Of a DNA stretch of 60,780 bases, positions 15,201 to 33,378 are shown piece by piece. Within the stretch, counting starts at the first letter, position 1, and each line of letters begins with the position of its first letter. This DNA comes from Blautia sp. (lineage in GTDB: Bacteria; Bacillota; Clostridia; Lachnospirales; Lachnospiraceae), in the NCBI GenBank assembly GCA_017475035.1, contig JAFVGK010000187.1, forward strand, positions 1 through 60,780. Reading direction: 5' to 3'. The position numbers and the translations under genes were made by a program. The notes beneath the pieces are model-generated. The model searched no databases and was not told the origin of the DNA. It saw only the letters and a program-made list of their open reading frames with translations.

Positions 15201-17602
15201 GGACGATAGAGAAGGCGCTTCCGGGCGTGCTTGAGGCGCTTGGCTCAGCGCTTAAAGTGATTGACTCCGTGCTGTCCACGCTGGAGCCGGCATTTACTCC
15301 GCTGTGGGAGAATGTCATTAAACCGCTGGCCGAAAAGACCGGGGCCGCAATTATCATTGTACTGCGCTGGATCACCGACAGGCTGACAGACCTGAGCAAT
15401 TGGATCAGCCAGCACTCGGAAGGCTTCAGCAAATTCGTTGAAGTCGTTGGTACATTTGTCGGCACATGGCTCGTAGGGAACGGCATAGCCGGGATTATCG
15501 GCGGTATTACAAAAGCCCTTGGCGGCATCATTACGGCACTCACAGGTGCTGGCGGCGTTATTCCGGCAATCAATCTTCTGGTCGGCGGGTTTAATCCTAT
15601 CCTGCTGGGTATCGCCGCTGTGGCTACAGGGGTCGTGCTTCTTATTACCCATTGGGATGATGTGAAGCAGGCCGCTATCAATGCGATTAACGCAATGACG
15701 GTTCCTAAAGAGTTTACGGAAGAGAGCCTTCCGGAACTCGACCAGCTCCTGTCAGACCTCGAACAAACCACAAATGCCCTTGGGGAAACAGCGAGCGGCG
15801 TATCTCAGGAAGGGCTGGCAGAACTGTACCAGTCCATCTACAACATGAGGATGGAGGCGGTCAATTCGCCTTACGCCCTTGATGATTTCATGCGCGCCTG
15901 CCAGAGAGCGGGAGTGGGGCCAGATGAACTGAAAGAAGCGTGTGGCCGCGCAGGTGTTAACCTTGACATCTTGATTGAGGCCATGGGCGGAACCGGCAGC
16001 GCTGCAACAGAGATGGCAGAAGAAACAACAGCTGCCAGCGACAGCATGAGCGAAGGCTGGAAGAATCATCAGGATGCCGCAACGGAAAGCCTTGAAGGCG
16101 TCAATACCTCGATTAAAGAGGTGGAATCTGCTGTGTCTGGCGCCAGGGATACCACCATGACAGAAACTGAAGCAATGAACAGTGCGTGGAGCGATTGGAA
16201 GAAATCAATCGAAGAATTCCATACCGCTGCAAACGGCACGATAGGAGAATCACAGAAATCCATAACCGACCTCAGCGACGTTACGGATACAGGATGCCAT
16301 GACATGTCCATGGATTGGGCTGGTTACAATGCAGAAGTGGAGAGGTGCCAGGATGCGATCAATCAGGCGGTCAGCGAAGGAAATGATTACATCAAGGATA
16401 TTGCATCCGTAACCAAGGATACCAGCGAGAAGTCCAGAAAATCCTGGGAGGATATTGAGTCTGATACCACAAAGAGCATCACAAATGCATCCGATACGGT
16501 AAACAGTAAATCAGGCGCGATGAAGGACGATGTCACCGACGCCAACACCAAGATCAATAAGGACACTGCCGCGCAATGGGATGACATCCGGTTGTCTGTC
16601 GATACGGCATTTGCTTCTATCTACAGCGGATCCATGGAGTGGGTAAAGAAGCTCCGTGAAGATCTTTATGATAAATTCGAGACGATTGCCAAGGTGCTCC
16701 CGAAGAAGTTCAACGGCATTGATGATGACATTGGCGAGAAGTTCATGGATGTCGGTGAGAAGGTTAAGGGCAAGGTTGATGAGGACAAAATCCCTGAATA
16801 CTTCGAGGATATGGCCGGAGACATCGTTTCAAGGTTCACATCAACTGCTCCGGACATCGCAGGGAAATTCAATGAAACCGGAAGGCTGGTTGAAAACGCT
16901 GTAAACGCACCAGCGATACTGGATTTCTTCCGGGACATTTCGGACAATGCGGTCAGTAAGTTCAGCAATACGGCGTCAGACATTGCTTCAAAGTTCAGCG
17001 GGATTGCCAGCGCGATCCATAACGCAATTGACCCGCAGGCAATCGGAAGGACAGCGGACACGGCCGCGCAATACCTTGTTGCACCGTTCCAGTCTGCGAG
17101 ACAGCAGATTGACAGTATGTTCACCAACTTCACGCCGTTTGACCTCTTTGCCATGTACAATATGGGGCAGAGGGCAGGCCAGTCGCTGGCGGACGGTTTC
17201 AAGAACACATACATACCCACCCCGCACATGTATATCAGCCGGTGGGATCCCCACGACAATGGGAATGGCGGCAGGATATACACGCCTGGTTTCTCTGTCC
17301 AGTGGTACGCAAAAGGCGGCTTCCCGTCCAAAGGCGAAATGTTTGTCGCAAATGAAAACGGCATAGAAGCCATGGGCAAGATGGGAAACAGGAACGTCGT
17401 GGCAAATAACCAGCAGATTGTGGATGGTATCCGCCAAGGTGTACTTGATGCAATGCTCACAGCAGGTGAGCACCAGGGCTCCGGAAACAATCAGCCGGTT
17501 TACATTACTCTCACAATTGATGGAAAAGAAGTCAGCCGGAAAGTGATTAAAGATATCAGGCAGATGAGCAAGGCAAACGGCTCGCCGGTCCTGCCATCGT
17601 AA
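12215..17602 (+). CDS. Tape measure protein
   Basis: This 1795-residue protein begins at GTG 12215 with AAGGAGG (12200-12206). Features in order: coiled coil of about 300 residues, a hydrophobic hairpin region near 310-340, an acidic Asp stretch near 525-535, then a set of about seven ~42-residue repeats between residues 630 and 930, each ending in a motif like IARDFAKAW or VAMAFRNAW. Next come a long hydrophobic domain (about 1080-1146) that could enter the host membrane, more helices, and a glycine-rich C-terminus. Tape measures set tail length at about 1.5 angstrom per residue, so a tail near 270 nm is expected. The repeats suggest length change by unit gain or loss. Confidence 0.95.
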   Translation: MADDTIAKLKVSIEADTAKYKAALEKASGTAKQVTKAIDSEIRKMQAPFEKVRAAIDRVQVAMGRKVETKAYAEVTRQLSDAQGELSKLLVKMEELKKSGGATEQTDRYKKLADQMREAKENLAAIEAQQKELKASGRDMGGQAPFFLEKEKLLNSSIDIYTKKLLRARQALASAQAKGEDTSGLEKEISSYLAKISQAQRGLSELKESFRKAVAAGNVRPSREMEELSAKADEAKARVESLRESMDRLSQTGGNTQESAAWASLREEAGNLGERIGELTERKYQLSSSGQAVESSSNRENQAFRAMKILLSGLSVTLSGLSRGFSAILSGIRKTSGAFAAMIQKFATGIPHLKLFNNEMRKTNNLTDSAKGIVKNLLRYGLGIRGLFALFNKIRNAIKEGMDNLAQYDKTGQLNQSLTTLHSSLIQLKNSLAAAFAPILVAITPALNQLIQLVIKAADAVGQLMSALTGVPYIKAAAVTEDYATSIENAGKKAKKAKKETKELENELMGFDRINKLSDDKKTDNDDDDDEDDGKLKPSQMFEPGTVASKWQELADKIKEIIKGLMDVVKKAWAQEGQKVIDSFRRALQRVKKLIADIAKTFYKVFTDGYGFDWLVSLFDLVSKILDVIGAIAYAFDEAWNDNDAGYKYVASIFEMFTAINKMLSDIARDFAKAWESEAGIRMASAILRLLTTINQTVKKIADAFRTAWNIDDRGYKLIKTIMNTLSSILDLISDITRDFGLAFESTSGINMLGTIIDMFRYIVRSIGYAAEAFRSVWNDNGYGLSILQTIMGMWSVIFGILGDVARDFGKVFKDGSGKEMIRSILGLFEEIHIIIGSVAMAFRNAWNDQNRGYLYINSIAKLISSIAGLLHSIGEAFVAAWEEGGLGEEIMGTILEIVTGIHDTISGFAEAIERGWEAGENGKRIWRAIFKIVDTILGKFNDIVQATKDWAQDLDFGPVFEAFGTLLEKIEPIAETITGALAEGWKNVLLPLGKWTIEKALPGVLEALGSALKVIDSVLSTLEPAFTPLWENVIKPLAEKTGAAIIIVLRWITDRLTDLSNWISQHSEGFSKFVEVVGTFVGTWLVGNGIAGIIGGITKALGGIITALTGAGGVIPAINLLVGGFNPILLGIAAVATGVVLLITHWDDVKQAAINAINAMTVPKEFTEESLPELDQLLSDLEQTTNALGETASGVSQEGLAELYQSIYNMRMEAVNSPYALDDFMRACQRAGVGPDELKEACGRAGVNLDILIEAMGGTGSAATEMAEETTAASDSMSEGWKNHQDAATESLEGVNTSIKEVESAVSGARDTTMTETEAMNSAWSDWKKSIEEFHTAANGTIGESQKSITDLSDVTDTGCHDMSMDWAGYNAEVERCQDAINQAVSEGNDYIKDIASVTKDTSEKSRKSWEDIESDTTKSITNASDTVNSKSGAMKDDVTDANTKINKDTAAQWDDIRLSVDTAFASIYSGSMEWVKKLREDLYDKFETIAKVLPKKFNGIDDDIGEKFMDVGEKVKGKVDEDKIPEYFEDMAGDIVSRFTSTAPDIAGKFNETGRLVENAVNAPAILDFFRDISDNAVSKFSNTASDIASKFSGIASAIHNAIDPQAIGRTADTAAQYLVAPFQSARQQIDSMFTNFTPFDLFAMYNMGQRAGQSLADGFKNTYIPTPHMYISRWDPHDNGNGGRIYTPGFSVQWYAKGGFPSKGEMFVANENGIEAMGKMGNRNVVANNQQIVDGIRQGVLDAMLTAGEHQGSGNNQPVYITLTIDGKEVSRKVIKDIRQMSKANGSPVLPS

Positions 17603-17614
17603 GGAGGTGGTGAC

Positions 17615-17974
17615 ATGGCGAGCTTATACATTGGAGGGCAGGCAATGCCTGAACCCAAAAAGAATGGGCTGGACATAAAGCACGAAAAGATATGGTCGAA
17701 GAAAACGGGGCGCGGAAGTGACGGGACCATGCTGGGGGATATCATCGCGTACAAAACCACGCTGACGATCACCTGGCCGCCACTGTCACAGAGCGAGGCG
17801 GCGCTTATAGATGCTGCCGTCGCCCCCTCTTTTTTCAATGTCACATATAGAGAAGTGGGCGGCGCGGCGGTGACGAAAACCTTTTACTCCGATACCCCTT
17901 CTTACCCCGTATACAGCTATGTACAGGGTGTGTCCACCTACCAGGGCGTGCAGGTCCAGCTGATCGAACAATAA
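17615..17974 (+). CDS. Small tail protein between tape measure and hub
   Basis: This 119-residue beta-rich protein has a good ribosome site (AAGGAGGTGG). Segments such as KTTLTITWPPLSQSEAALID and a C-terminal YVQGVSTYQGVQVQLIEQ are like small distal tail or head-tail proteins of Firmicutes prophages. It occupies the distal tail (Dit) position but is shorter than a classic Dit, so the role is inferred from location only. Confidence 0.7.
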   Translation: MASLYIGGQAMPEPKKNGLDIKHEKIWSKKTGRGSDGTMLGDIIAYKTTLTITWPPLSQSEAALIDAAVAPSFFNVTYREVGGAAVTKTFYSDTPSYPVYSYVQGVSTYQGVQVQLIEQ

Positions 17975-17983
17975 GGAGATTAT

Positions 17984-18382
17984 ATGAAAATCACAGTAAG
18001 ACAGGCAATTGTTGCGGCAGATGCAATCGCGTCAATCAGGAACAAGTCTCTTCCGGTACGAGTGAGTTATGCACTCAACAAATCTTTCGCAGCGCTTTCC
18101 AGGGAACGGAATGCGGCGGACGAAGAGAGGATTAAGCTCTGCAAGAAGTACGCCGACAAGGACGAAGCCGGGGAACCGATTGTTACAGAGAATGCCTTCA
18201 AGATGACGGAAGAAAATGAAAAGGCATGCAACGCGGAATTTCGGGAGCTTCTGGAAACAGAAACGGAAGTGGATTTGTTTAAATTCCCGCTCTCTTATCT
18301 GGAGGCGGTGGAAACAGACAGCCGGTATGACGCCTTAACCGTAAGCGAACTGGATGCATTGTCGATGCTGATCGAAGAGTAA
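17984..18382 (+). CDS. DUF1617-like tail protein
   Basis: This 132-residue, mostly helical protein has the order ITVRQAIVAADAIASI, LSRERNAADEERIKLCKKY and a C-terminal LEAVETDSRYDALTVSELDALSMLIEE, which I recognise as the DUF1617 family of Firmicutes phages. Its genes lie near the tail hub. Function unknown. Confidence 0.7.
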   Translation: MKITVRQAIVAADAIASIRNKSLPVRVSYALNKSFAALSRERNAADEERIKLCKKYADKDEAGEPIVTENAFKMTEENEKACNAEFRELLETETEVDLFKFPLSYLEAVETDSRYDALTVSELDALSMLIEE

Positions 18383-18395
18383 AGGAGGCCGGGCC

Positions 18396-21300
18396 ATGTA
18401 CCAGGTGTCAGAAGCCTTCCAGGCGGCGGTTGCCAAAAACGGCAGGACATTCGAGGTAGAACTCCGCAAAGATGGTAATGTCATTGATGCCGCGGTGATG
18501 GCCATGCAATACAAGGGCGGAACCTTCGGGGAGTCCCGCTTTACGATTGGCGGCGCAGTGGCAAGTTATATAGAGTTGACACTGCGGCTGCCAGCTCCTG
18601 TATTGGCAAAGGCAGAAATTTCTGTTTACATTCGTCCCAAAGCCACACCGGCGGTAGAGTGGCTGCCGATGGGGCTATTTACATGCGACCGCCCTGAAGT
18701 GGACGGGGAGGATGTATCAATTACCGCTTATGATCGGATGATCAAACTGGAACGAAGTTACTTCTCAGCGCTGACTTATCCAACATCTTCTAACAACCTG
18801 TTGACGGAAATAAGCACACTTACAGGAGTACCGGTGAACTTACCAGGCAAGGAAGTGACATTCGGCTCCGCCCCCGTTGGTTATACCTGCAGGGAGGTTG
18901 TCTCCTATATCGCGCAACGTCTTGGAAAATTCGCCACAATAGACCGCACGGGGAATCTTTGTTTCAAAGGTTATGTCAGTTATGGAGCAAGTGTCCCATT
19001 TGGGAGATACTGGGATCCTTTTACCAGGTCGGAATACGACTATGAGCTTAGCGGCATTAAGTGCATAGTTGGCACGCAAGACAGCCAAGATGGCGGACAA
19101 GAACCCGTATATCTTCTGTCAGGGAACGAGACAAAACAGGTTATCACCATCGAAAATCCTTTTATGACACAGGATGATCTTGATCTTGTGTTCCGCTCGT
19201 TCGGTTCATCCTTTAAATTTCGCCCGGGGAACCTTTGGGCGATGGGGGACCCAACGGTAGAACCCGGAGACATCCTGACAATATATGAAGGCGAGACAGG
19301 GTATAGGGTTCCGGTCACATCTCTTGTGTTTGATTTTGACGGCGGCCTCGCCATGGAGATTGAAGGGACAGGCGCACCGGAATCAGATCAGGACGTCGAC
19401 ATCAAGGGCCCCACAATCAGAGCGGTAGACAGACTGACCGCACAGCTGATTGCTGCTGAAAAGATTCTTGCCCGAAAGATTGATGCGGACGAAGTCTCCG
19501 CGAATTATGTGACAGCGGCGGTATTCAATGGGCAGGTGGCGAACTTCAATACACTGAATGCTGATTACGCTGCGTTTAAAAGCGCCGCTACGGGGCGATT
19601 GACGGCCATAGAGGGAGATTTTGAGGAGCTGCAGACAGGAACCCTCACAGCACTGGAAGCCAGGATAGGCACGCTCGAAACAGGTGTCTTTTCTGCCGCG
19701 ACAGCTTCTATTGGAAGCCTCTCCACAGATATAGCAAATATCAGGTCTTTGTTGTCCGGAACGGCGGCAGCAACAAGCGCAGACGTCATTCGTCTGACCG
19801 CCAACAACGCTACTATCGACTCTGCTATGTTACGATCCGCCCTGATAAACGTGCTTTCTGTAAGTGATCTGATTGCCGGAAATATCAGTACAGACAGATT
19901 TACCGTCGGGTCAGATGATGGCTCTTTCCTGATTAACGGAAGTCTGTTACAGATCAAAGACGATGACGGCGTTGTCAGGATCCAGATCGGCAAAGACACA
20001 ACCGGAGATTTCACCTTTACGCTTTACGATGAAACTGGCAACGGACAGTTGATAAATGCAAACGGCATTCAACCCTCGGCGGTTTCCGACGGCCTGATAG
20101 TCGACAGAATGGTAAAAAGCATCGGGAGTGGATACAACGGTATTTCTGCAAACAAGCTGAATATATCTTCTGTGATCGGATCCATAAACAGTATTGGCGG
20201 TCTGAAAAGCTCCTCGGTTTACTTCGATGAGGAAGGCCAGACCCTTACGCAGGTTTATGCCCAGGTAAAATCCACCGCGGAACAGTCTGCGACATCCGCG
20301 GCACAATCTGCACAGGCAGCACAGGCGGCTTTGACGGCGATAGAGGGGATTTCCACACTGGATGCATTCGGCGTTTTCCTTTCCAATGATGCCCACGTGG
20401 TACACACATACAGCGACGGCGCTGGCGGAGATTGGTCAGACTGCGTCACTACTGTAACAGCGGTTATGGGCGACACGGATGTATCTGGCAGGGCGGCATT
20501 CACGCCCATTCCCTCCGAAGGAGTTTCCGGCACATGGGATCAGGCAACCAGAACATATCGAGTAACCGGCATGTCCACAAATGATGGGTATGTTGATTTT
20601 GATGTGGGTTACGGAACGAGGCGCAGATACCTCCTTTTACCAACCGGGGCAAGGCTGCTCATGCCATCCGGAGGGGCGGTTACAATAGCGGTCGGCGCAG
20701 CACATGTGACAAAGCGTTTCTCCATCAGCAAAGCGCCTGACGGGCGCGTTGGACTGTTCTACTCCCTTAGCGCTTCGGCGCTTGTCGTAAAACGGAAAGC
20801 AGACGGAGCCCTCCTGCCTGAAAGAATCGAATTCTCCGCAATCCAGATCAACGACGGAACAGCTTCTGCGTATCAAGGCGTTTTTGTTATTTATGAGACC
20901 GTAAATAACGAGGATTATGTAGAGAAATATCGATCATCTTCAGGGGAAACACATGTTGAATACACTATATCCGCTCCAACAGTAGAAGGGCTCCGGTGCG
21001 TGCTTCTCGATTCAACCGGGAACACATTAGATACACAGAGTGTTGTAGTTGTCGCTGATGCCGGGGAGATAGCAGCTGACGTTGCGGCTCTGTCAGATGG
21101 AATCACGGAAATCCAGGAAAGTGTCGAACAAACAGAACAGCGCCTTACGGATATAGAAACCGGCGTTGATGGGCTGCGGCTTTCTATCTCGGAAACCAAA
21201 AAGGAGATACATACAGTAACCGATGGGATTCTGCAATGGGAGCCTTACGATTCTGTCAATGAAGAAGCTGGTACAGCTCTGATTACCGCGAGAGTCCTGA

Positions 21301-21542
21301 AGTCTGGTGAAGATGTTACCAAAAGTTACCCTCCGGAATGGTACACCTACTGGAAAAAGAACGAAGAAGGCGTGGAATATCTGGGAAATGGATACACCCT
21401 TACGGTTCAGTTGGACAGCATGGACTTCTCTGGCGAGGTGCAAATGGTATTCACAACTTATAGCGACGCTCATCTGCTGGACGCAAGAAACAGACGCTTG
21501 TTGACTCCAGATAGAAAACGGTATGTAGTTTATAAATCTTAA
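18396..21542 (+). CDS. Tail hub / tail-associated protein
   Basis: This 1048-residue protein has a hub-like N-terminal half (about 1-330) with IELTLRLPAPVLAKAEISVYI, GLFTCDRPEVDGEDVSI and MGDPTVEPGDILTIYEGE, resembling gp27-like hub proteins that seal the tail tip. The middle (about 345-510) is helical and Ala/Thr-rich, likely trimeric coiled coil. Later parts are beta-sandwich modules, and the final residues are a RRLLTPDRKRYVV peptide that also occurs inside the fibre gene at about 26485. It precedes the DGR target gene, consistent with a baseplate that carries variable receptor-binding proteins. Confidence 0.85.
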   Translation: MYQVSEAFQAAVAKNGRTFEVELRKDGNVIDAAVMAMQYKGGTFGESRFTIGGAVASYIELTLRLPAPVLAKAEISVYIRPKATPAVEWLPMGLFTCDRPEVDGEDVSITAYDRMIKLERSYFSALTYPTSSNNLLTEISTLTGVPVNLPGKEVTFGSAPVGYTCREVVSYIAQRLGKFATIDRTGNLCFKGYVSYGASVPFGRYWDPFTRSEYDYELSGIKCIVGTQDSQDGGQEPVYLLSGNETKQVITIENPFMTQDDLDLVFRSFGSSFKFRPGNLWAMGDPTVEPGDILTIYEGETGYRVPVTSLVFDFDGGLAMEIEGTGAPESDQDVDIKGPTIRAVDRLTAQLIAAEKILARKIDADEVSANYVTAAVFNGQVANFNTLNADYAAFKSAATGRLTAIEGDFEELQTGTLTALEARIGTLETGVFSAATASIGSLSTDIANIRSLLSGTAAATSADVIRLTANNATIDSAMLRSALINVLSVSDLIAGNISTDRFTVGSDDGSFLINGSLLQIKDDDGVVRIQIGKDTTGDFTFTLYDETGNGQLINANGIQPSAVSDGLIVDRMVKSIGSGYNGISANKLNISSVIGSINSIGGLKSSSVYFDEEGQTLTQVYAQVKSTAEQSATSAAQSAQAAQAALTAIEGISTLDAFGVFLSNDAHVVHTYSDGAGGDWSDCVTTVTAVMGDTDVSGRAAFTPIPSEGVSGTWDQATRTYRVTGMSTNDGYVDFDVGYGTRRRYLLLPTGARLLMPSGGAVTIAVGAAHVTKRFSISKAPDGRVGLFYSLSASALVVKRKADGALLPERIEFSAIQINDGTASAYQGVFVIYETVNNEDYVEKYRSSSGETHVEYTISAPTVEGLRCVLLDSTGNTLDTQSVVVVADAGEIAADVAALSDGITEIQESVEQTEQRLTDIETGVDGLRLSISETKKEIHTVTDGILQWEPYDSVNEEAGTALITARVLKSGEDVTKSYPPEWYTYWKKNEEGVEYLGNGYTLTVQLDSMDFSGEVQMVFTTYSDAHLLDARNRRLLTPDRKRYVVYKS

Positions 21543-21556
21543 AGCAGGAGGACTAT

Positions 21557-22912
21557 ATGGCAGATATCTCAGATGTATATGTTAAAGATCTAACCGCTGA
21601 AACTCTGGATTCTCTTAATGGTTCCGAGGGTGTGGTTGGTTTTGACACTGTAGAGGGTAAGCAAATCCCCGTAAATGTGCTGTCGAGGTATGCGGTAGAA
21701 AAACAGGCGATCACCGTCAACGGCTCAAACAAGACCGTACAGGCGGGTCTTAATGATCTGTACGGGATTACCGATGACCTGGCAGCTTCTATCGCGGCGG
21801 CCAGGGAAGATATCAGCTGGTTGGAAATCGCCAACGATATGCGTACAGGGAAGACGGGAAAGTACAATATTGGTGATACGATCACGGAGCCGTGGACAGA
21901 TACGACGTTGGACAGAGCCTACGATAATCCTTGGCGGGTAAACCACTTTGGATCCGTAGAAACACAAGGCGGGGTCACATTGCCGGGCATGTGGTTGCAG
22001 AATGTGTATGCGCATCCCTTCGGAGTGCAGTTCAGCCATCAGAGGGCGTTTTACAAATGCCCATCCGGATTAGCTGCTGGAACATACTATGTGACCCTTG
22101 GCGCATCCTGGGGAAGCAAAGATGCTGTCGCAGACACATCGTGGAATTTTACTCTGACAAAAGCAGTCCCCGCGGGCGGCAGGCTTGCCGGCTTCTACCA
22201 AATGCCAGATGCGCTTTCGTCCACCTGGCAGGTACACGTTTTTGCAGCTGATGGTATCACGGAACTTGAGGTCGCCAATATATCGAGCGGAGCTTCTGGA
22301 ACCAACCTGGGGACACTTGCCTTAAACACAAGAAACGGAAATCTTAACAGCATGCAGGAGACCGGATACGGATGGAATAACTGGGCACATTCTGCGCTGA
22401 GGCAGTATCTGAATTCGGACAAAGGAATCGGAGAATGGTGGGAACCGCAGGATGAATGGGATATCCGGCCGGATCAGCTTGCGACAAAACCGGGATACTT
22501 GACCGGCTTGCCAGATGGTATGAAGGCAATGCTTGTACCAACGAAGACCGTTACATATTCAAACACAGTGCAAGATGGCGGGGGTGCGGAAATAACTTAC
22601 GACAAAGTATCCTTGATATCTTTGCAACAGGCATATATTGTTCCGCAGATCCAGGGCGAAGGCGAAGCCCATGACTATTGGAAACAGGCACTGGGCACAG
22701 AAACCCCGTTTGACACCGGAAGCAATCATGTCAGCGACGCGTTAAAACACTATGCGGTAGAAAACCACGCATCAGCTCAGACCGTCCGTTTACGTTCCGC
22801 GAACCGTGGCACCGCGACCAACGCCTGGTACATGAACTCGGGCGGGTATGTCAACTACTACTACTTCGCGAGCTATGCGTATAGGTTCGCCCCGCTTGTG
22901 TTCATCGGTTAA
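21557..22912 (+). CDS. DGR target: tail tip protein with lectin-like variable C-terminus
   Basis: This is a 451-residue protein. Residues 1-95 are a trimer-like helical N-terminus, with an MADISDVYVKDLTAE start that likely docks on the baseplate. The C-terminal part from about residue 260 (NGNLNSMQETGYGWNNWAHSA and WWEPQDEWDIRP) has the DUF6273/formylglycine-enzyme-like C-type lectin fold seen in DGR targets, and ends RFAPLVFIG. Variable codons produce Thr, Tyr and Phe where TR encodes Asn. In this VR the diversified positions are mainly aromatic (Tyr, Tyr, Tyr, Phe, Tyr, Tyr), as in many ligand-binding DGR surfaces. Confidence 0.92.
   Translation: MADISDVYVKDLTAETLDSLNGSEGVVGFDTVEGKQIPVNVLSRYAVEKQAITVNGSNKTVQAGLNDLYGITDDLAASIAAAREDISWLEIANDMRTGKTGKYNIGDTITEPWTDTTLDRAYDNPWRVNHFGSVETQGGVTLPGMWLQNVYAHPFGVQFSHQRAFYKCPSGLAAGTYYVTLGASWGSKDAVADTSWNFTLTKAVPAGGRLAGFYQMPDALSSTWQVHVFAADGITELEVANISSGASGTNLGTLALNTRNGNLNSMQETGYGWNNWAHSALRQYLNSDKGIGEWWEPQDEWDIRPDQLATKPGYLTGLPDGMKAMLVPTKTVTYSNTVQDGGGAEITYDKVSLISLQQAYIVPQIQGEGEAHDYWKQALGTETPFDTGSNHVSDALKHYAVENHASAQTVRLRSANRGTATNAWYMNSGGYVNYYYFASYAYRFAPLVFIG
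22772..22900 (+). repeat. DGR variable repeat (VR), 129 bp
   Basis: Aligned with TR (offset 645 before the indel), substitutions occur at TR 23427, 23457 and 23463 (A to C), 23501, 23504 and 23507 (A to T), 23516 and 23522 (A to T), and 23537 (A to C). There is also one extra codon TTC at 22865-22867, plus a possible A-to-T at the first position. No substitution affects a G, C or T of TR. VR ends 9 nt before the stop codon. Confidence 0.95.
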
Positions 22913-22922
22913 TCCTATCATC

Positions 22923-22946
22923 CCCCGGCGCACACCTGCGCCGGGG
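22923..22946. other. DGR target hairpin/cruciform
   Basis: CCCCGGCGCA and TGCGCCGGGG form a perfect 10-bp stem with four-base loop CACC, starting 22 nt after VR and 10 nt after the target stop codon. In the BPP-1 DGR an inverted repeat of this size just downstream of VR is needed for efficient retrohoming. There is no T tract, so it is not a good terminator. Confidence 0.8.
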
Positions 22947-22963
22947 CTGTGGAAGGAGGAAAC

Positions 22964-23398
22964 ATGTCTGTTAATGTAGGACAACGTAATGTACCTGATA
23001 CACCGTCAAACAAGATGCTTTATGCGGTTGATCGTGCGGCTAAGCTTGCTGCGCATACAATCACGATTTGCGCAAATCCGAAAATATTTTTACCGGAGTA
23101 TCAACATATCACACAGGAGATCGTAAATACCTCGGTTGAGATTTACAAAGATGCCTGGACCGCCAACAATATCGTGGTAAAAATCCCTGATGACTGGATT
23201 ACCAGGCGGCGCATGCAACTACTTGCCATTTCAAAATGCAACGCGCTTCTCGCGCTGATAGGTCTGGCCAAGATGCTTTACCATTTGCGCAGTAAGAAAG
23301 TGAAATGCTGGGCGACGATGACAATTGAAACCCGGGGCCTTCTGCGAAAGTGGCACGAGGCAGACCGGAAAAGGTATGGGGATCTTTTGAAGCAATAA
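22964..23398 (+). CDS. avd: DGR accessory variability determinant (Avd)
   Basis: This 144-residue protein starts at ATG 22964 with GGAAGGAGG at 22951-22959; the upstream GTG is inside the ribosome site. It is an all-helical, basic protein with AVDRAAKLAAHTITI, a central WITRRRMQLLAISKCNALLALIG helix pair and a C-terminal KWHEADRKRYGDLLK helix, matching the four-helix-bundle Avd family. Avd forms a positively charged pentamer that binds the reverse transcriptase and TR RNA. It lies between VR and TR as in BPP-1 type DGRs. Confidence 0.88.
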   Translation: MSVNVGQRNVPDTPSNKMLYAVDRAAKLAAHTITICANPKIFLPEYQHITQEIVNTSVEIYKDAWTANNIVVKIPDDWITRRRMQLLAISKCNALLALIGLAKMLYHLRSKKVKCWATMTIETRGLLRKWHEADRKRYGDLLKQ

Positions 23399-23691
23399 AA
23401 ACTTGGGACACAGGCTACAGCTCAGAACGTCCGTTTACGTTCCGCGAACCGTGGCAACGCGAACAACGCCTGGTACATGAACTCGGGCGGGTATGTCAAC
23501 AACAACAACGCGAGCAATGCGAATAGGTTCGCCCCGATTGTGCAAGAAGGCCGGCAATAAAATCATCACATAGTGACGACTGACTGGCAAAACGAACACA
23601 AGGAGCCGAAATCCCTGCTGAAAAGCTAAACAACGACGGCACGACACGCGGTATCAAAGGTATACTGCGTTATCAGCGTGTTTTTAAATAT
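23399..23691 (+). ncRNA. DGR RNA region (TR plus spacer)
   Basis: This 293-nt stretch between avd and the RT start contains TR and then about 149 nt of spacer. In characterised DGRs, TR and spacer are transcribed as one structured RNA and the spacer primes or positions cDNA synthesis. The short frames here are not preceded by ribosome sites. Ends of the RNA cannot be fixed from sequence; it may extend into both flanking genes. Confidence 0.75.
23417..23542 (+). repeat. DGR template repeat (TR), 126 bp
   Basis: The 126-bp stretch carries 34 adenines, including AAC/AAT codons at the positions that vary in VR. It contains four tandem AAC triplets (23498-23509) where VR has five corresponding codons. 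Homology to VR stops after GTG at 23540-23542. Confidence 0.95.
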
Positions 23692-24756
23692 ATGAGAAAA
23701 GAAGAAATCACAGACGCAGATGAATTGTTTGATTCCATGAAAAAATGCAGGAAAAGCGTAGGTTGGAAACCATCGGTCATAAGCTTCTGTCTGAATGGCG
23801 TCGAAAAGACGATGAAAATGGAAATGGATATAAAAAATGGGAAGTGGAAGAACGGAAAGCCAAGGCCAATCACCATTACCTATCCCAAAAGAAGAGAAGG
23901 GTTAAGCATACAATTCACGGACAGAGTGTACCAGAGAAGCCTGAACGACAATAGTGTCTATCCAGAAACCACAAGATCTTTTATATATGATAATTGCGCC
24001 TGTCAGAGAGGAAAAGGCACGAGCTTCGCCAGAAAACGGATAAAACAGTTCATCAAACACTTTGCTGCAAAAGGTGGTTATGTGCTTCATATAGATATAA
24101 AGGGTTACTATCCGAATATGAGGCATGACAAGGTAAAAGAAATGTTTGCAAAACGCCTGAAACCAGATATTTACAAAATGGTTGCAGACGTTCTTGACAC
24201 ACAGTATTCCGGAAGTGTGGGATACAATCCCGGAAGCCAGATGGTGCAGATTGCCGGTATCGCGTTGCTAGACAGACTGGACCATTTTATAAAAGAAAAA
24301 TGCCGTGCAAGATATTATATTCGATACATGGACGATATTTATGTCTTACACGAGGATGAAAAAGTTTTAAACCACATATTATCGGAGGCCGAGGTCCTGT
24401 TGGCAGACCTTGGTTTTGAGACAAACAAAAAGAAAACAATGATCTCGAAGCTGTCAGACGGTTTCATGTTTCTCGGATTCAACTATCGCGTTACTGCCAC
24501 CGGGAAAATAGTCACGACGCTTGATCCGAAGAATATTAAGCATGAGAGGCAAAAGCTTGCCCGAATGGTACAGAAAGCAAAGCAAGGATTTATTAGCAGG
24601 GCTAAAGTTGATGAATGCTATCACTCGTGGAAGAACCACGCCTCTTACGGGAACTCATACAATCTGTTGAAAAGAATGGATGAGTACTATAAAAATCTTT
24701 GGAGGGATTCAGAAAATGGCGAAACTGAACAAAAGAACAATGGCAATCAGCGATGA
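23692..24756 (+). CDS. DGR reverse transcriptase
   Basis: This 354-residue protein shows the RT palm and fingers motifs. LHIDIKGYYPNM holds the first catalytic Asp, YMDD at residues 212-215 is the active site, and GSQMVQIAG at 180-188 carries the SQ signature distinguishing DGR enzymes from group II intron and retron RTs. A C-terminal thumb-like region ends near residue 340. ATG 23692 is the first start codon in frame. No Shine-Dalgarno is visible, and the frame is open upstream to 23584 without ATG, GTG or TTG, so initiation is weak or unusual. The 3' end overlaps a small tail gene. Confidence 0.95.
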   Translation: MRKEEITDADELFDSMKKCRKSVGWKPSVISFCLNGVEKTMKMEMDIKNGKWKNGKPRPITITYPKRREGLSIQFTDRVYQRSLNDNSVYPETTRSFIYDNCACQRGKGTSFARKRIKQFIKHFAAKGGYVLHIDIKGYYPNMRHDKVKEMFAKRLKPDIYKMVADVLDTQYSGSVGYNPGSQMVQIAGIALLDRLDHFIKEKCRARYYIRYMDDIYVLHEDEKVLNHILSEAEVLLADLGFETNKKKTMISKLSDGFMFLGFNYRVTATGKIVTTLDPKNIKHERQKLARMVQKAKQGFISRAKVDECYHSWKNHASYGNSYNLLKRMDEYYKNLWRDSENGETEQKNNGNQR

Positions 24757-24880
24757 GGTAGAATTAAAGACTTTAAAGGCGAAGGTCGCCGAGCAGAGCG
24801 CCCTGATCGATTACCTGGCGGCGATGACAGATGTGGAAATCCCGTTTGATGAGGGGGGAGAAGATGAGCAGGAGTTATAA
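24716..24880 (+). CDS. Small coiled-coil protein before XkdX
   Basis: This 54-residue protein starts at ATG 24716 with GGAGGG upstream, inside the end of the RT gene. It contains a helix rich in Leu, Lys and Glu (ELKTLKAKVAEQSALIDYLAA) and an acidic tail. Short helical proteins like this usually precede XkdX in Firmicutes prophages. Function unknown. Confidence 0.75.
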   Translation: MAKLNKRTMAISDEVELKTLKAKVAEQSALIDYLAAMTDVEIPFDEGGEDEQEL

Positions 24881-24998
24881 CAAGGTAAAATATTACTATG
24901 TTTATGGTATGTGGACAAAGGGCATGGTTCGCAACGTTGTTGGCAGGTTGATTACAAAAGATGAATACGCTCTGATCACGGGGGAAGATTATGAATGA
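24864..24998 (+). CDS. xkdX: XkdX family protein
   Basis: This 44-residue protein is recognisable by YVYGMWTKGMVRNVV and the C-terminal KDEYALITGEDYE, the conserved core of the XkdX family. These are small proteins of unknown role found next to tail fibre genes in PBSX-like and related phages. The start ATG 24864 is preceded by GGGGGGAG and overlaps the previous gene; the stop overlaps the next gene's start. Confidence 0.88.
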   Translation: MSRSYNKVKYYYVYGMWTKGMVRNVVGRLITKDEYALITGEDYE

Positions 24999-25167
24999 TC
25001 CCGTTCACATCATACAAAAACTATGGTCCGCCATTTATGATTTGCTTCTATATGCAAAGGGCACTCCAGTAAAGGGACTGGAAGAAATTGAAACAGAACT
25101 GGATGTACTGGAATATTTATGCAGGCCCTTTGCCCTTGATGCGTATATCCCGGCAGGACCGATGTAA
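24991..25167 (+). CDS. Small tail-module protein
   Basis: This 58-residue protein starts at ATG 24991, with GGGGGAAG just upstream and 8 nt overlap with XkdX. The sequence is helical and amphipathic (HIIQKLWSAIYDLLLYAKG, LEEIETELDVLEYLC). Gene-tight packing on both sides argues that it is real. No recognisable family. Confidence 0.65.
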   Translation: MNDPVHIIQKLWSAIYDLLLYAKGTPVKGLEEIETELDVLEYLCRPFALDAYIPAGPM

Positions 25168-25175
25168 GAAAGAAG

Positions 25176-28100
25176 GTGGTGACTTCGCGATACGTAAGAG
25201 AGACAAACCTTTTTTCTAAGAGTGCTTTGCGCAGACATTTTGAGGCTTATGATACCAAGCTGTCTGTGCTGCAGGGGGAAATCAACGCTATTATCAGCGC
25301 AAGCGAAATTGATGAGTATTGGGACGGCACCAAAACCATGTACAGCCAGTTGGCTGCGGCTCAACTAAGGATCGATGCGCTTGTGCTCGATTTCTCATCA
25401 CAAAAAGAGCTGTACGATGGATTATCTAGTGATGTCACATCCATGGAGGCCAGTCTTGCTTCGTACAAAGCGGGCCTGGATGGACTCGAAGCTGATCTGT
25501 CGAGGGTAGAGCAAACACTTTCCAGCGACTACTCCACGACCGCAGCCACCAGGACGATGATCAGCGCGAGTGTATCTGAGGTATCCAGCGAGATATCAAA
25601 TCTCAGGACGACGCTTACCAGCGATTATTCAACTACCGAGCAGACCAGATCACTGATCAAACAGTCTTCCGACAGCATCACCAGTACAATAACCGCATTT
25701 AAAAAGGACGTACAGGATAATTACGCTACTACATCGTCCGTGACATCCGCAATCACGCAGTCAGCCAATGATATACGCTTGTCAGTGTCCTCCACTTACG
25801 CGACAAAAGAAGAAATGCAGAATGTGGACAGCAGTACTATCAAAGGTGTGAAAGTGGAGTATGCCCTATCTGACAGCCCCACAACAGAACCACAGACGGG
25901 GTGGAGTGAAACTGCACCGGCATGGCAGAACGGGAAGTACATGTGGCAGCGAAACGCTACCATGGCCGGCGGTACCTGGCGTTATTCTGACGCCACCTGC
26001 ATCAGTGGTGCTACTGGCCAGCAGGGGATCCAGGGAGAGAAAGGAGACCAGTGCATCCCGGGCAAGCAGGGAGAAAAAGGAGAACAGGGCGTACAGGGCA
26101 ATCCCGGGCAGAATGGTTTAACTTCATACTTCCACATCAAGTATTCCCAAGTAGAGAACCCAACGGCGGCGCAGATGACGGAAACTCCATCGGCGTATAT
26201 CGGGACATATACAGACTTTGTGGAGACCGACAGCACAGATCCAACCAAATACACCTGGCATAGGTTTGAGGGTCTTCAGGGGGAAGACGGAAAAGACGGA
26301 ATTCCCGGCACTAATGGCGCTGACGGCGTAACATATTATCTCCATATCAAATATTCTGATGATGGAGGGGAAACATTTACCGGCAACGACGGCGAAGATG
26401 TCGGAAAGTATATCGGGACACTGGTAGACACAAACCCGGAAGACCCCATTGCAGAAGACGGATATCTTGTCGCCGGAAACAAAAGACTTCTTACTCCTGA
26501 TGGAAAACGATACGTGGTCTCAACACAGCTCACGGAGCTTTACACGTGGGCGCAAATCCGCGGAGAGGATGGCAAGGATGGTCAGCCAGGCCTGCAGGGA
26601 ATTCAGGGCGAAAAAGGCGATCAAGGTGTCCCCGGCATAAACGGCGTAAATGGTCTGACATCATATTTCCACATTAAATACTCCCCTGTGGAAAACCCGA
26701 CAGCATCACAGATGACAGAAGTTCCGTCCGTCTACATCGGAACTTACGTTGACTTTACCGAGGAGGACAGCGCAAACCCCGCTGACTACTCATGGCATCG
26801 CTTCGAGGGACTACAGGGAGAGCAAGGCCTTCAGGGTATCCCTGGTACAAATGGTATAGACGGAACAACACATTATCTACATATAAAGTATTCCAACGAC
26901 GGTGGCACGACCTTTACAGGAGCTTCAGGAGAAACCCCGGGCGACTATATTGGTACACTGGTAGATGAAAACGAAATAGACAGCTCCAGACCAGCTGACT
27001 ATACGTGGGCAAAGGTAAAAGGCACAGGGATTACGTCCGTCACGCCACAATACTACCTTTCAACCTCCGACAGTGCTCAGACCGGTGGATCATGGGTGGA
27101 AACACCACCAGAATATATAGAGGGACGATACTACTGGACTCGCTCAAAAATTGAATATGATGATGGCTCGGATCCGATGTATACAGACCCCTGTCTGGAC
27201 ACTGGGTTCAATCAGCTCAATACGGAAATCAGCAGCCTGAAAACAAGAGTCAGCCGAACGGAGATTTATGCATCTGACGAGAAAATAGAATCCGTCGCAT
27301 GGGCTTGCACGACAGCGCAAGATGTAATTGCAAGGCCATACATTAAGGCACAAACTACTGCCCCGGCGTCCCCAAGGGAGGGCGATGTCTGGATTGACAC
27401 GGGTAATGACAACGCTATGATGCGGTATAACGGTTCTCGGTGGGTAGAAATCCAGGATGGCGATATCGCAAGGATTTCTGGGGATTTAAGTGATCTGGCA
27501 ACAACAGTTGACGATAACACCGGTTCCATTACCTCTCTCCAGGGCACAGTATCCAGCCACAACGGAGCTATTATAGCTTTAAATATGGATGTGGCTGACC
27601 TGAAACAGTCGAGAGACGAATTTACACAGTGGAAGACAACGGCGAGCCAGAAGATAACCGACTCTGCAATTATCAGTACCGTAACAGGATCAGCGACCTA
27701 CATCAATGATATGACCGGGAAAGTTTCCGTGAACGACTTTTCTACCATGGTGGGGCAGTGGTGGGACACTGTTGAGGTTTCTGCGGAAAAGGTAGATATC
27801 GATGCTTCCAGCGTGGTGTTTGGAAAGAACCTTGTTACAGTAACCGAACACAATGAAAAATCACTGGATACAACAGGCCCGTTCAACGGAAAATTCGTCA
27901 TAGAAGGAACTTACCTGAAGGCTGTGCAATCAGGAAGTACCGGGTACAATCTATGCAGCTACAAAAGGAATCCGTTTGCAACAGGTGATAAGGTTTACTA
28001 TTCGCTGAAAGGTTATGCGCAGGCGAGTACACGTGTATACGTAAGGTTACGGTTTTACAACGAATCAAAACAGCAAACCAATCAGGCCCAGGCAGAAATA

Positions 28101-29390
28101 ACGCTTACAACGGAGGCAAAGGAATATAACGGAACGATTACGCTGACGAATTCTGCCGTTAATGATGCGGCTTATGTTTGCGCCTATTTGTATGTGAGCG
28201 GCAGCACAACAGCCTACTTCCGGCAGGTCTGCATGTACAGACAGGATGCCTCCGTGATGATCGCAAACGGCTCCCTGACAGCAAACCATCTGGCGGCGGA
28301 TTCTGTTACAGCTGACAAAATCGCGGCAAACGCAGTGACAGCCGATAAAATTTCCGCTAACGCAGTGACGGCTGATAAAATATCGGCCAATGCGGTCACA
28401 GCCGGTAAGCTCGCCGCCGGGGCAGTCACAGCCGGCACGATAGCAGCAGGGGCTGTTACGGCATCAGTTATTGATGTCTCGAACCTGTCGGCGATTTCGG
28501 CTTATCTGGGGAGCTGGCATATACATAATGGATATCTGTACTCCGAAAGCGATATCATCCAGTTCAACAGCACTTCTTTCAGGTATCGCACATATCTTTT
28601 GAATTATGCCGGGGGAGCTGATTACGCCATCGGAGTAGTGGAGAAGACGGAAGATTTTGATCTTGTCGATCCGCAACACGAAGACTTCATCTGGGGTATA
28701 AAAAACGATGGGTCTATGGTAGCAATGCGTGGCCTGAGCCTTCAGGGCGGCATGAGCATACAGGGCGGTTTATCTGTCGATTCACTGACGCTTGCTTCTG
28801 GAGCGACAGTATCAGGATCCGCCACGTTTCTTAACGCGCTTACGTACAACGGAACATCCACCTTTAATAACGACGCCACTTTTACACGCGACGTATACCT
28901 CAACACAAATGCGATTCTCGGCAGCGGCGTCAAGCTGAAACAGATGGTTGACGGAACCGCGCGTGAATTGTTCGGGTACGGCAGCCAGCTGGAGCTGACA
29001 CTTGGGCAGGACGGTATAACGAAAAATATCATAGCCTGCATTGGGAACAGCGGGAACGGCGGAAGTTTCCGGCCTGTTTCCAACGGTCAGACATCGCTCG
29101 GGACATCATCATACAGATGGTCGGCTGTGTATGCGGCAAACGGCGTGATCCAGACATCCGATGAGCAGGAAAAGGACGCATTCGAAAACCTGAGCGAGGG
29201 AAAATACAAGGAGCTCTTTATGGCTATATCACCCATCGCTTTCCGCTGGAAAGACGGACGGGATGGATTCACGCACTTTGGCATCGGTGCCCAGACATTT
29301 GAACGAGACGTGGAAAGGCTTGGCTTGATGGATATAGCGGCTGTAAGGTGGGATGACGGAGCGTATGGCGTCAGTTATACAGAGCTGTAG
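25176..29390 (+). CDS. Tail fibre with collagen-like segments and S74 chaperone end
   Basis: This 1404-residue protein starts at GTG 25176 or 25179, with AAGAAGG upstream. Residues 1-220 are coiled coil. Residues about 220-690 alternate YFHIKY- and YLHIKY-type beta domains with short Gly-X-Y collagen-like runs (near 280-315 and 462-492). About 900-1020 is a carbohydrate-binding-like jelly roll (FATGDKVYYSLKGYAQ). Residues near 1035-1100 carry six decapeptide repeats of the AVTADKISAN type, typical of fibre shafts. The C-terminus is an S74 intramolecular chaperone with the Ser-Asp cleavage motif SDEQEK at 1328-1333. An in-frame TAG at 29388 cuts the domain before its final helix. Confidence 0.9.
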   Translation: MVTSRYVRETNLFSKSALRRHFEAYDTKLSVLQGEINAIISASEIDEYWDGTKTMYSQLAAAQLRIDALVLDFSSQKELYDGLSSDVTSMEASLASYKAGLDGLEADLSRVEQTLSSDYSTTAATRTMISASVSEVSSEISNLRTTLTSDYSTTEQTRSLIKQSSDSITSTITAFKKDVQDNYATTSSVTSAITQSANDIRLSVSSTYATKEEMQNVDSSTIKGVKVEYALSDSPTTEPQTGWSETAPAWQNGKYMWQRNATMAGGTWRYSDATCISGATGQQGIQGEKGDQCIPGKQGEKGEQGVQGNPGQNGLTSYFHIKYSQVENPTAAQMTETPSAYIGTYTDFVETDSTDPTKYTWHRFEGLQGEDGKDGIPGTNGADGVTYYLHIKYSDDGGETFTGNDGEDVGKYIGTLVDTNPEDPIAEDGYLVAGNKRLLTPDGKRYVVSTQLTELYTWAQIRGEDGKDGQPGLQGIQGEKGDQGVPGINGVNGLTSYFHIKYSPVENPTASQMTEVPSVYIGTYVDFTEEDSANPADYSWHRFEGLQGEQGLQGIPGTNGIDGTTHYLHIKYSNDGGTTFTGASGETPGDYIGTLVDENEIDSSRPADYTWAKVKGTGITSVTPQYYLSTSDSAQTGGSWVETPPEYIEGRYYWTRSKIEYDDGSDPMYTDPCLDTGFNQLNTEISSLKTRVSRTEIYASDEKIESVAWACTTAQDVIARPYIKAQTTAPASPREGDVWIDTGNDNAMMRYNGSRWVEIQDGDIARISGDLSDLATTVDDNTGSITSLQGTVSSHNGAIIALNMDVADLKQSRDEFTQWKTTASQKITDSAIISTVTGSATYINDMTGKVSVNDFSTMVGQWWDTVEVSAEKVDIDASSVVFGKNLVTVTEHNEKSLDTTGPFNGKFVIEGTYLKAVQSGSTGYNLCSYKRNPFATGDKVYYSLKGYAQASTRVYVRLRFYNESKQQTNQAQAEITLTTEAKEYNGTITLTNSAVNDAAYVCAYLYVSGSTTAYFRQVCMYRQDASVMIANGSLTANHLAADSVTADKIAANAVTADKISANAVTADKISANAVTAGKLAAGAVTAGTIAAGAVTASVIDVSNLSAISAYLGSWHIHNGYLYSESDIIQFNSTSFRYRTYLLNYAGGADYAIGVVEKTEDFDLVDPQHEDFIWGIKNDGSMVAMRGLSLQGGMSIQGGLSVDSLTLASGATVSGSATFLNALTYNGTSTFNNDATFTRDVYLNTNAILGSGVKLKQMVDGTARELFGYGSQLELTLGQDGITKNIIACIGNSGNGGSFRPVSNGQTSLGTSSYRWSAVYAANGVIQTSDEQEKDAFENLSEGKYKELFMAISPIAFRWKDGRDGFTHFGIGAQTFERDVERLGLMDIAAVRWDDGAYGVSYTEL
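28288..28470 (+). repeat. Six ~30-bp coding repeats (fibre shaft)
   Basis: Tandem near-identical 30-bp units encode DSVTADKIAA, NAVTADKISA (twice), NAVTAGKLAA, GAVTAGTIAA and GAVTASVIDV. They make a regular trimeric shaft ahead of the receptor domain and could change in copy number by recombination. Confidence 0.8.
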
Positions 29391-29480
29391 ATGCTTACAG
29401 TGCCGGTCGTGCAGGCACATGAACAGGAAATCGAACAGCTGAAGGAAAGAGTAGCGCAGCTGGAAAGGAGGCAGGGCTGA
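29391..29480 (+). CDS. Severed C-terminal helix of the S74 chaperone domain
   Basis: Directly after the fibre's TAG, the same frame stays open for 29 codons, beginning with ATG and ending in a Glu/Gln-rich heptad helix (EQEIEQLKERVAQLERR). S74 domains normally finish with exactly such a trimeric coiled coil after the SYTEL-like strand, so this is the rest of the fibre. It could be made by TAG readthrough, by reinitiation at the adjacent ATG, or not at all if the TAG is a nonsense mutation. Confidence 0.7.
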   Translation: MLTVPVVQAHEQEIEQLKERVAQLERRQG

Positions 29481-29822
29481 GTGGTTGAGATAAAAAATAA
29501 CGTGATCAGGGCTACGCAGGGCGATACCGTCAGAACACAGTTTGTGTTCGAGATTGAGGAAGGCGTCCCCTACGAGCCATCCGAAGGCGACAGGATCAGG
29601 CTTGCCGTAAAAGCGAGCAAGGATCCGCAAGACAATAATATCCTTGTCGATGTCGAAATCCCTATCACTACAATGGAACTTGTCGTGCCTTCCTCAGAGA
29701 CGAAGAAGCTGCCGTACCGCAGGAAACCTTGTTTTTATGACATTGAGGTCACATTTGCTGGCGGAGATGTCCTTACTGTGATATCAGAAGGCGAATGGTA
29801 TTCCATGCCGGAGGTGATGTGA
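29481..29822 (+). CDS. Baseplate/fibre Ig-like small protein
   Basis: This 113-residue protein from GTG 29481 follows the preceding TGA without a gap, with GAAAGGAGG upstream. It is a beta-sandwich protein with RATQGDTVRTQFVFE, GDRIRLAVKAS and FYDIEVTFAGGDVLTVI, similar to the N-terminal BppU-type domains of lactococcal and clostridial baseplates. It overlaps the next gene by one base and probably anchors it. Confidence 0.7.
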   Translation: MVEIKNNVIRATQGDTVRTQFVFEIEEGVPYEPSEGDRIRLAVKASKDPQDNNILVDVEIPITTMELVVPSSETKKLPYRRKPCFYDIEVTFAGGDVLTVISEGEWYSMPEVM

Positions 29823-31438
29823 TGGGTGATCTGACAAACATTGAGCCAATCAAGGGGACGCTTAAAACCGTGGAACCTATCAAGGGGACATTTGCCGGCG
29901 AAACTTTACGAGGATATGACGCTTACACAATCGCTGTGCAGAACGGGTTTGAAGGGACCGTAGAAGAGTGGCTGCTGTCCCTGAAGGGTGAAAGAGGTGA
30001 GCAGGGGCCTCAGGGCGACAGGGGAGATAAAGGAGACTCGGGCCCGCCGGGCGAGCAAGGCGCTCAGGGCGAGCGCGGAGAAAAGGGCGACAAAGGTGAT
30101 CAAGGGGAGCGTGGTCCCAGAGGACTCACAGGAGAAACTGGAGCTACTGGACCGAAGGGAGATAAGGGAGATACCGGCAACACCCCAATCGTTACAGCCA
30201 CAAAAAGCAACGGTGTAACAACTATCTCAGCTGACGGCGTCCCTATAGCCACTATCAATGACGGATCTGAGGGAGCAAAAGGAGAAACTGGATCCACTGG
30301 ACCGCAGGGGCCGAAAGGCGATAAAGGAGAACAGGGTATTCAAGGAGAACAAGGCCTGAAGGGTGACAAAGGAGATAAAGGCGATACTGGCGAGCAAGGC
30401 CCGCAGGGTATCCAAGGCCCGAAGGGTGACACCGGCTTGACAGGCCCTCAAGGCCCACAAGGAGAACAAGGTATCCAAGGCCCTAAAGGTGATGCTCCAG
30501 AAATTACAGCTACAAAGTCAGGATCAGTTACCACAATTTTCGCTGACGGCACGTCTATCGCCACGATAAATGACGGAGCTGATGGGCAGGATTATGTACT
30601 TACTGATTCTGATAAATCAGAGATTGCAGGATTAGTCTCTGAAGAAATTGATTTGTCAGATTATGTTAAAAATACGGACTATGCAACTGCTAATGACGCC
30701 GGCCTGGTAAAAGCTGATGCCGCTAATGGCATTGGCGTTGAGTCTCAACATAAAATGTATATAAATTATGCATCAAGTGATCTTATTAAATCCGGTGTTG
30801 GTAATTATCGACCAATTACTCCTCCAAGACAACACGAATCAGTATTTTATGGTTTAGCAAAGGCAGCAGGAGACACAACTCAGTCACAGTCCACAAATAC
30901 TGTAGGAACATATACCGATGAAGCCATTATTGCAATCAAGAAAATGCTTGGCATTTATGAATCTCCGTGGGAATTGATTAACGAGGCAACTTTCACAAAC
31001 ACTGAGTCCGGAAATTATGTGATTACAAGTGATATAAATGGTCAACCCTTTCAGCTTACAGATATTATCATGATATTCGGGACACCAAAGCAAGAAATAG
31101 ATGCTGCAAAAGGCGCTTATGGGCAAATTTGGTATTACTATAACAATATAAATTCGCGATTGACCCCCGAAGCTGGTGCATGGACTCAGGCCGCCAATAG
31201 TGCATCCCATGGTTTTTTCAATTTTGTTAGGACTGAGGGTGATCTTGTCATTTACAACGATTCCGCTCAGACAACATCTAGTAACAGTGGTTCAATGAGG
31301 TATAGATATTCTCAAGACTTTGGTGGCGCAGCATCTGCGGTTAAAATAATACCAGGCTTTTTTATTCACAAAATTGAAATACCACAAGTTCTTGGCACAG
31401 CTCATTATAGGCTCTTTGGAAAACGAAAATGGAAATGA
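29822..31438 (+). CDS. Collagen-like tail fibre
   Basis: This 538-residue protein starts at ATG 29822. After a short N-terminal anchor, with TAYDAY-type repeats of the form IEPIKGT, residues about 54-224 are two blocks of Gly-X-Y triplets (GEQGPQGDRGDKG and similar). They are separated by a small TTISADGVPIATIND beta element that recurs after each block. The C-terminal 300 residues form an unrelated head domain (IYESPWELINEA to HYRLFGKRKWK) with a much higher A+T content than the collagen part. That suggests exchange of the receptor-binding head. It would be a secondary fibre beside the DGR-diversified tip. Confidence 0.85.
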   Translation: MGDLTNIEPIKGTLKTVEPIKGTFAGETLRGYDAYTIAVQNGFEGTVEEWLLSLKGERGEQGPQGDRGDKGDSGPPGEQGAQGERGEKGDKGDQGERGPRGLTGETGATGPKGDKGDTGNTPIVTATKSNGVTTISADGVPIATINDGSEGAKGETGSTGPQGPKGDKGEQGIQGEQGLKGDKGDKGDTGEQGPQGIQGPKGDTGLTGPQGPQGEQGIQGPKGDAPEITATKSGSVTTIFADGTSIATINDGADGQDYVLTDSDKSEIAGLVSEEIDLSDYVKNTDYATANDAGLVKADAANGIGVESQHKMYINYASSDLIKSGVGNYRPITPPRQHESVFYGLAKAAGDTTQSQSTNTVGTYTDEAIIAIKKMLGIYESPWELINEATFTNTESGNYVITSDINGQPFQLTDIIMIFGTPKQEIDAAKGAYGQIWYYYNNINSRLTPEAGAWTQAANSASHGFFNFVRTEGDLVIYNDSAQTTSSNSGSMRYRYSQDFGGAASAVKIIPGFFIHKIEIPQVLGTAHYRLFGKRKWK

Positions 31439-31463
31439 TAAGCTATTAAAAGGAGGCTAACAT

Positions 31464-31742: not shown

Positions 31743-31753
31743 CGGAGAATGCT

Positions 31754-32149: not shown

Positions 32150-32163
32150 GAGGGAAAGATACT

Positions 32164-32693: not shown

Positions 32694-32744
32694 GACATAC
32701 TTCTTTTTCGACTTGTGCATATTGACGAAAATACAGAAACGCTC

Positions 32745-32773
32745 TTGAAATTATCTTTGCATAAATATATACT
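32745..32773 (+). promoter_or_regulatory. Promoter of the DUF2335 cassette
   Basis: TTGAAA (32745-32750), a 17-bp spacer and TATACT (32768-32773), with an AT-rich spacer. It lies in the gap after the DUF2829 gene and 26 nt before the first start of the cassette. Confidence 0.65.
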
Positions 32774-32798
32774 TTCCACATAAAGAAAAGGAGAGAAG

Positions 32799-33372: not shown

Positions 33373-33378
33373 TAATTT

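Follow-up and report, generated by a model that had tools for sequence, protein, structure and literature searches.

A retroelement cassette in a Blautia prophage

Contig JAFVGK010000187.1 of a Blautia sp. assembly (GCA_017475035.1), analysed here over its whole length of 60,780 nucleotides (hereafter the window), carries part of a prophage, in which positions 21557-24756 hold, in this order, a target gene ending in a variable repeat (VR), a hairpin, avd, a template repeat (TR), a spacer and a reverse transcriptase (RT). We are confident that this cassette represents a complete diversity-generating retroelement (DGR): VR lies at the 3' end of the target and differs from TR in an adenine-limited manner, the RT is of the YxDD type, the two repeats differ at the initiation of mutagenic homing site (IMH in VR, IMH* in TR), and both Avd and a stem-loop are present. 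The reading frames of target, avd and RT are open. An earlier note, made from the sequence alone, had given the same span, which runs from the ATG of the target at 21557 to the stop codon of the RT at 24756, and had assigned this adenine-directed DGR to a prophage tail module; both statements agree with our results, the second through the TR-VR pattern and the phage genes found at 2.4-34.9 kb.

Over the 125 aligned TR columns (23418-23542), VR carries nine substitutions (five A>T and four A>C), all located at the 33 adenines of TR and none in the 92 other columns; by chance, nine out of nine on 33 of 125 columns would occur with a probability of 2.5e-6 (hypergeometric). A longer local alignment adds three mismatches (one A, two non-A) at 22768-22772, just 5' of the repeat, which belong to the flank. 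One of the nine, the A>C change between TR 23537 and VR 22895, is common to the relatives and is the fixed IMH*/IMH difference, so that eight hypermutations are left. The nine or more adenine-only substitutions announced by the earlier note are thus correct as a count, but the note overlooked that one of them is fixed, treated the VR-TR differences as substitutions only and missed the insertion of one codon in VR. With this extra codon included, the variable codons encode five Tyr, three Thr and one Phe, the very residues it had named.

TR-VR pairs were also surveyed in the loci fetched for comparison (designated L), giving a first set of 103 distinct pairs from 184 sources and a second of 169 from 260; pairs were taken only if at least 65% of the mismatches fell on adenines and at least five mismatches were present. 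Across the core columns of the first set, substitutions affect 1234 of 2606 TR adenines and 25 of 4774 other bases, an excess that, given this preselection, is purely descriptive. A GA[T/C][T/C] end is found within the last 30 TR bases in 78 of the 103 pairs, and VR reads there C (66 pairs), T (9) or A (3), never G. The AAC codons of these pairs become chiefly Tyr, Ser and Gly, and their second adenine, unlike that of the IMH end, changes most often to G (245 of 393 changed). Tyr and Ser are also the two most frequent products of AAC in the reconstituted BPP-1 system, according to a passage of PMC12875486.

Table 1. Features of the cassette and its surroundings (window coordinates)
Feature	Position	Strand	Description
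Window	1..60780		Whole contig C169; host assembly of 5.08 Mb in 200 contigs
Tail protein gene	18396-21542		Directly before target
Target gene	21557..22912	+	451 aa, C-terminal DUF6273 region; homologues at related DGR loci
VR	22773..22901	+	3' end of target; direct repeat of TR
Asn-tract region of VR	22853..22867	+	AAC TAC TAC TAC TTC (five codons), four AAC in TR
IMH end of VR	22886..22901	+	Fixed C at 22895, A in TR at 23537
GC-rich stem-loop 3' of VR	22923..22946	+	10-bp stem, 4-nt loop; also in L003
avd (accessory variability determinant)	22964..23398	+	144 aa; phrog_3206 'Avd protein of DGR', E 3.1e-6
TR	23418..23543	+	Intergenic, close to RT; direct repeat of VR
Uninterrupted (AAC)4 tract of TR	23498..23509	+
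Spacer between TR and RT	23544..23691	+	Unchanged in L003
DGR reverse transcriptase	23692..24756	+	354 aa, YMDD, RVT_1, phrog_1423
Collagen-repeat, tail-fibre-like gene	25176-29390		After RT

Divergence from the closest relative

IMG/VR contig 3300031760_000564 (locus L003) is about 94% identical to the window over 5.5 kb, and the differences are unevenly distributed. TR and spacer (the latter counted as 23543-23691) show none (0 of 125 and 0 of 149 positions), and avd shows 44 in 435. In VR, 15 of the 33 TR-adenine columns differ, against 0 of the 92 others (p 1.1e-10). These VR differences fall on codon position 1 (eight) and position 2 (seven) and never on position 3, whereas position 3 holds 102 of the 134 differences in the central part of the target gene. 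Such divergence of VR next to an identical TR, seen in one relative, supports DGR activity in this lineage. The earlier note had proposed, as a check, that VR be compared in relatives; in the one relative with the same TR, the outcome favours the element it described rather than its refutation. An exact IMG/VR search with the non-adenine skeleton of TR matched only the contig of L003 and L078 and returned no further copy, which rules out sampling VR at the population level. In the host assembly, VR and TR were the only matches of a VR query (E <= 0.001), and no third match was found.

The middle of the target gene (21886-22622) is 18.2% divergent between the window and L003, the flanking gene parts, VR apart, being less than 2% divergent. 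This stretch forms a mosaic patch that recombination has probably exchanged.

The question arises as to how VR would be rewritten. The order of the elements (target, VR, stem-loop, avd, TR, spacer, RT) is that of the BPP-1 DGR (Mtd/avd/TR/brt), following the layout described in part of PMC12875486, and the adenine-limited substitution and the IMH/IMH* difference at the 3' end are likewise shared; the window differs from BPP-1 by its DUF6273 target, its motif 4 (PGSQMVQ) and a VR one codon longer than TR. For this cassette, we infer a mechanism in which TR would be transcribed together with the downstream spacer, a region whose role as the RNA that recruits RT and Avd and primes synthesis is drawn from BPP-1 (PMC12875486, in part). 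The RT, with Avd, would copy TR into cDNA, misincorporating at adenines, and this cDNA would overwrite VR, where the DUF6273 gene upstream ends, with the help of stem-loop and IMH end, TR itself staying unchanged. The tail-region binding protein so produced would have a variable patch. DGRs are a familiar class of elements, and in the lineage of this one the target has been diversified, judging from its repeats and those of L003.

An extra codon in the variable repeat

VR is three bases longer than TR, the template AAC AAC AAC AAC corresponding to AAC TAC TAC TAC TTC, and L003, with an identical TR, has four tract codons and no extra one. Identical TRs with VRs of unequal length are also found in L010/L011 and L141/L142. 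In the second set of pairs, 62 of the 260 sources had no detectable pair and some sources overlap, a contig having been fetched twice; merging duplicates by TR and VR content reduced 214 pairs to 169. Gaps near alignment ends or outside tracts (L031, L038, L093, L144 and L164) were excluded from the count of tract changes. Codon-length changes are present in 15 of 70 pairs whose TR contains (AAC)>=4 and in 2 of 99 others (Fisher p 4.1e-5); the 15 comprise twelve of +3, two of +6 and one of -3, and over all pairs gains outnumber losses by 15 to 2. A run of at least four Asn codons broken by AAT is present in 57 of the 99 others, and none of these 57 changed in length. In the first set the corresponding figures were 13 of 48 for an unbroken (AAC)4 and 0 of 55 for the others; that length change is confined to unbroken (AAC)4 templates was overturned by the larger set, with L225 (+3) and L237 (-3) as exceptions.

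The lengthened VRs offer an indication of when the codon was gained. In 5 of the 12 from the first set (L197, L225 and L228 fall outside it), no tract codon equals its neighbour; the check lost the first codon of L007, L079 and L121, and the full tracts leave the result unchanged. In these five the added codon therefore seems to have undergone mutagenesis along with its neighbours, in agreement with slippage during cDNA synthesis: the RT, or the cDNA, would slip by one repeat unit on (AAC)4, so that a VR copy would now and then acquire an additional codon, mutagenised like the others. We regard slippage at this step as fairly probable.

Alternatively, the extra codon may stem from a change at the DNA level, TR having lost a repeat after VR was written or VR having duplicated a TAC codon. 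The near relatives L108 and L110, with near-identical RTs, carry five and four AAC in their TR, so that contraction of TR is possible for some cases, and adjacent identical codons are seen in 7 of the 12 lengthened VRs, among them the window with its TAC TAC TAC. However, L003 has no extra codon next to an identical TR, a late duplication does not account for the 5 VRs without equal neighbours, and gains exceed losses by far; this alternative thus seems to us rather unlikely.

Several observations weigh against slippage on the tract as a general explanation. The extra codon of the window lies within its TAC run and is compatible with a late duplication, the tract of TR itself varies in length between L108 and L110, and L225 and L237 changed in length although neither has a run of four Asn codons. 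Moreover, the effect of the tract did not reach significance when loci were paired phylogenetically: 21 pairs gave on average 3.1 the same way and 0.6 the opposite way (median p 0.375), and 9 pairs of the first set gave 1.4 and 0 (not significant). Finally, among 151 loci placed in a tree and classified by RT motif 4 (RTs shorter than 200 aa as well as L085, L067 and L099 were left out, and the changed pair L121 is thus missing), the [IV]Q class of RTs, to which that of the window belongs (see below), accounts for 9 of the 16 loci with a length change, so that template tract and RT type are confounded. Within (AAC)4 templates, 9 of 26 loci of the [IV]Q class changed, against 3 of 29 of the SQ/TQ class (p 0.048); outside the [IV]Q class, loci with the tract changed in 5 of 37 cases and those without it in 2 of 85 (p 0.026), and within SQ/TQ alone the figures are 3 of 29 and 1 of 72 (p 0.07), all these subset tests being post hoc and uncorrected for relatedness.

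A literature search on DGR insertions, indels, slippage and AAC turned up one relevant statement, in PMC12875486, which, in the passage concerned, credits Wu et al. 2018 with in-frame indels of AAC repeats, produced by slippage in multiples of three. The slippage mechanism is thus already proposed in outline in print, for the same in-frame length change at AAC repeats as described here. What is possibly added here are the 169 pairs, the dominance of gains, the strong association with an unbroken (AAC)4 and its confounding with clade; the bias towards gains and the dependence on the tract may be new, though confounded with RT clade.

The target protein

The only Pfam match of the target above the cut-off is PF19789 (DUF6273; E 1.7e-9, residues 265-433). 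Modelling of DUF6273 domains gave a C-type lectin fold whose surface beta-hairpin holds VR (PMC10743442, in part), and in the DGR targets of the Faecalibacterium phages Lelie, CP11, Roos and Pioen the variable regions lie at the C-terminus of DUF6273 (PMC11792537, in part). The target thus shares this domain with those of gut and Faecalibacterium phages (nd4 and nd12 in PMC10743442, the four others in PMC11792537, as far as the parts consulted describe them), but differs in having no Pfam Ig-domain match and in being closer to IMG/VR contigs: of the loci compared with it, L003 (92%), L004 (69% over a fragment) and L006 (50%) come nearest, nd12 and nd4 standing far down the list (L179 and L183). 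A PDB search gave no sequence match to Mtd.

We consider it likely that the target is a tail-region protein with a receptor-binding role. The earlier note went further, to a tail tip protein through which the lysogen would vary its host range in place, a putative role that goes beyond the placement of the gene among tail genes. A different virion surface protein, for instance one for decoration or mucus binding, rather than a host-range adhesin, seems rather improbable. It would agree with one of the three PHROG matches ('Hoc-like head decoration', E 1.6e-9; the two others, the best at E 3.3e-21, are of unknown function) and with the Hoc-like genes annotated beside the RT in the Faecalibacterium phages FP_Brigit and FP_Toutatis. 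Against it speak the position of the gene, with a tail protein gene on one side and tail-fibre-like genes on the other, the C-terminal VR, a feature shared with BPP-1 Mtd according to part of PMC10743442, and the missing Ig-domain match in Pfam.

The reverse transcriptase

The catalytic motif of the RT is YMDD, and its relatives in named genome records are mostly Clostridia or members of that group, many from animal guts. Its best PDB match by sequence is 8ub7 (E 5.4e-17), titled 'Reverse transcriptase', which we take to be the BPP-1 RT complex. Motif 4 reads PGSQMVQ (24229-24249), with P for I/V/L and V for S of the (I/V/L)GxxxSQ pattern, which is conserved in 90% of DGR RTs (PMC3521204, in part). 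The earlier note was right about YMDD; the 'SQ' it reported lies inside PGSQMVQ, V occupying the place of the canonical S. Its statement that all parts are intact holds for the open reading frames and passed over this noncanonical motif. The [IV]Q class accounts for 29 of the 151 RTs surveyed, and the replacement of the canonical I/V/L and S by P and V/I characterises an entire group of DGR RTs from phages.

The departure in motif 4 speaks against a working cassette, and could mark the loss of function of a silent remnant that diversified its target in the past, but we hold this to be very unlikely, since the frames of RT, avd and target are open, TR and spacer are the same as in L003 although their neighbours diverge, the [IV]Q-class loci L004, L006 and L007 show 11 of 11, 18 of 19 and 18 of 18 substitutions on adenines, and VQ is listed among the natural variants of the last two motif residues, which vary in 15 of 155 elements in the part of PMC3521204 consulted, whose authors allow for sequencing errors or recent inactivations.

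Prophage setting and other cassettes

The prophage is truncated at the left end of the contig. A PHROG scan identified terminase, portal, major head protein, tape measure, tail genes and endolysin among its genes, and genes of host type begin at about 38 kb (flavin reductase, tRNA-editing domain, GNAT, PfkB, ABC transporter, amidohydrolase and GH127). The DGR stands between the tail protein gene and the collagen-repeat, tail-fibre-like gene (Table 1). Between endolysin and host genes lie a dCTP-deaminase-like match (34990-35793, + strand) and an LPD15-domain match (35874-36911, - strand). The PHROG scan covered 36 proteins of the window, several open reading frames lying outside it, and revealed no integrase, the phage being cut at the left. 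The window gave no Rfam match at gathering thresholds and no tRNA or tmRNA, and the avd product had no Pfam or NCBIfam match. When named phages were searched with the 5-kb region, a single match was obtained, at 2% coverage.

A second, distant DGR-like pair is present in the same host assembly (L085, on G000:C177; TR 550-658, VR 289-397), upstream of another reverse transcriptase (842-2218); its 14 TR-VR differences all fall on TR adenines, and its TR has no long AAC run. In a genome of the same genus (G011:C55), L069 and L077 represent a related RT that is split in two and has stops within the part matched; it looks like a decayed copy. L039, L066 and L167 each have two VRs for one TR within the same locus.

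A possible diversification of length

Tentatively, and as a reading less probable than not, DGRs of this group could be seen as diversifying length in addition to sequence. The four-Asn tract would then be a hot spot of slippage at which gains greatly outnumber losses, and a silent choice between AAC and AAT, perhaps together with the motif 4 type of the RT, would switch loop-length variation on or off while leaving the template peptide unchanged. If synonymous AAC/AAT choice does gate codon gain, DGRs would sample different loop lengths in addition to different residues, and the template would reveal the setting.

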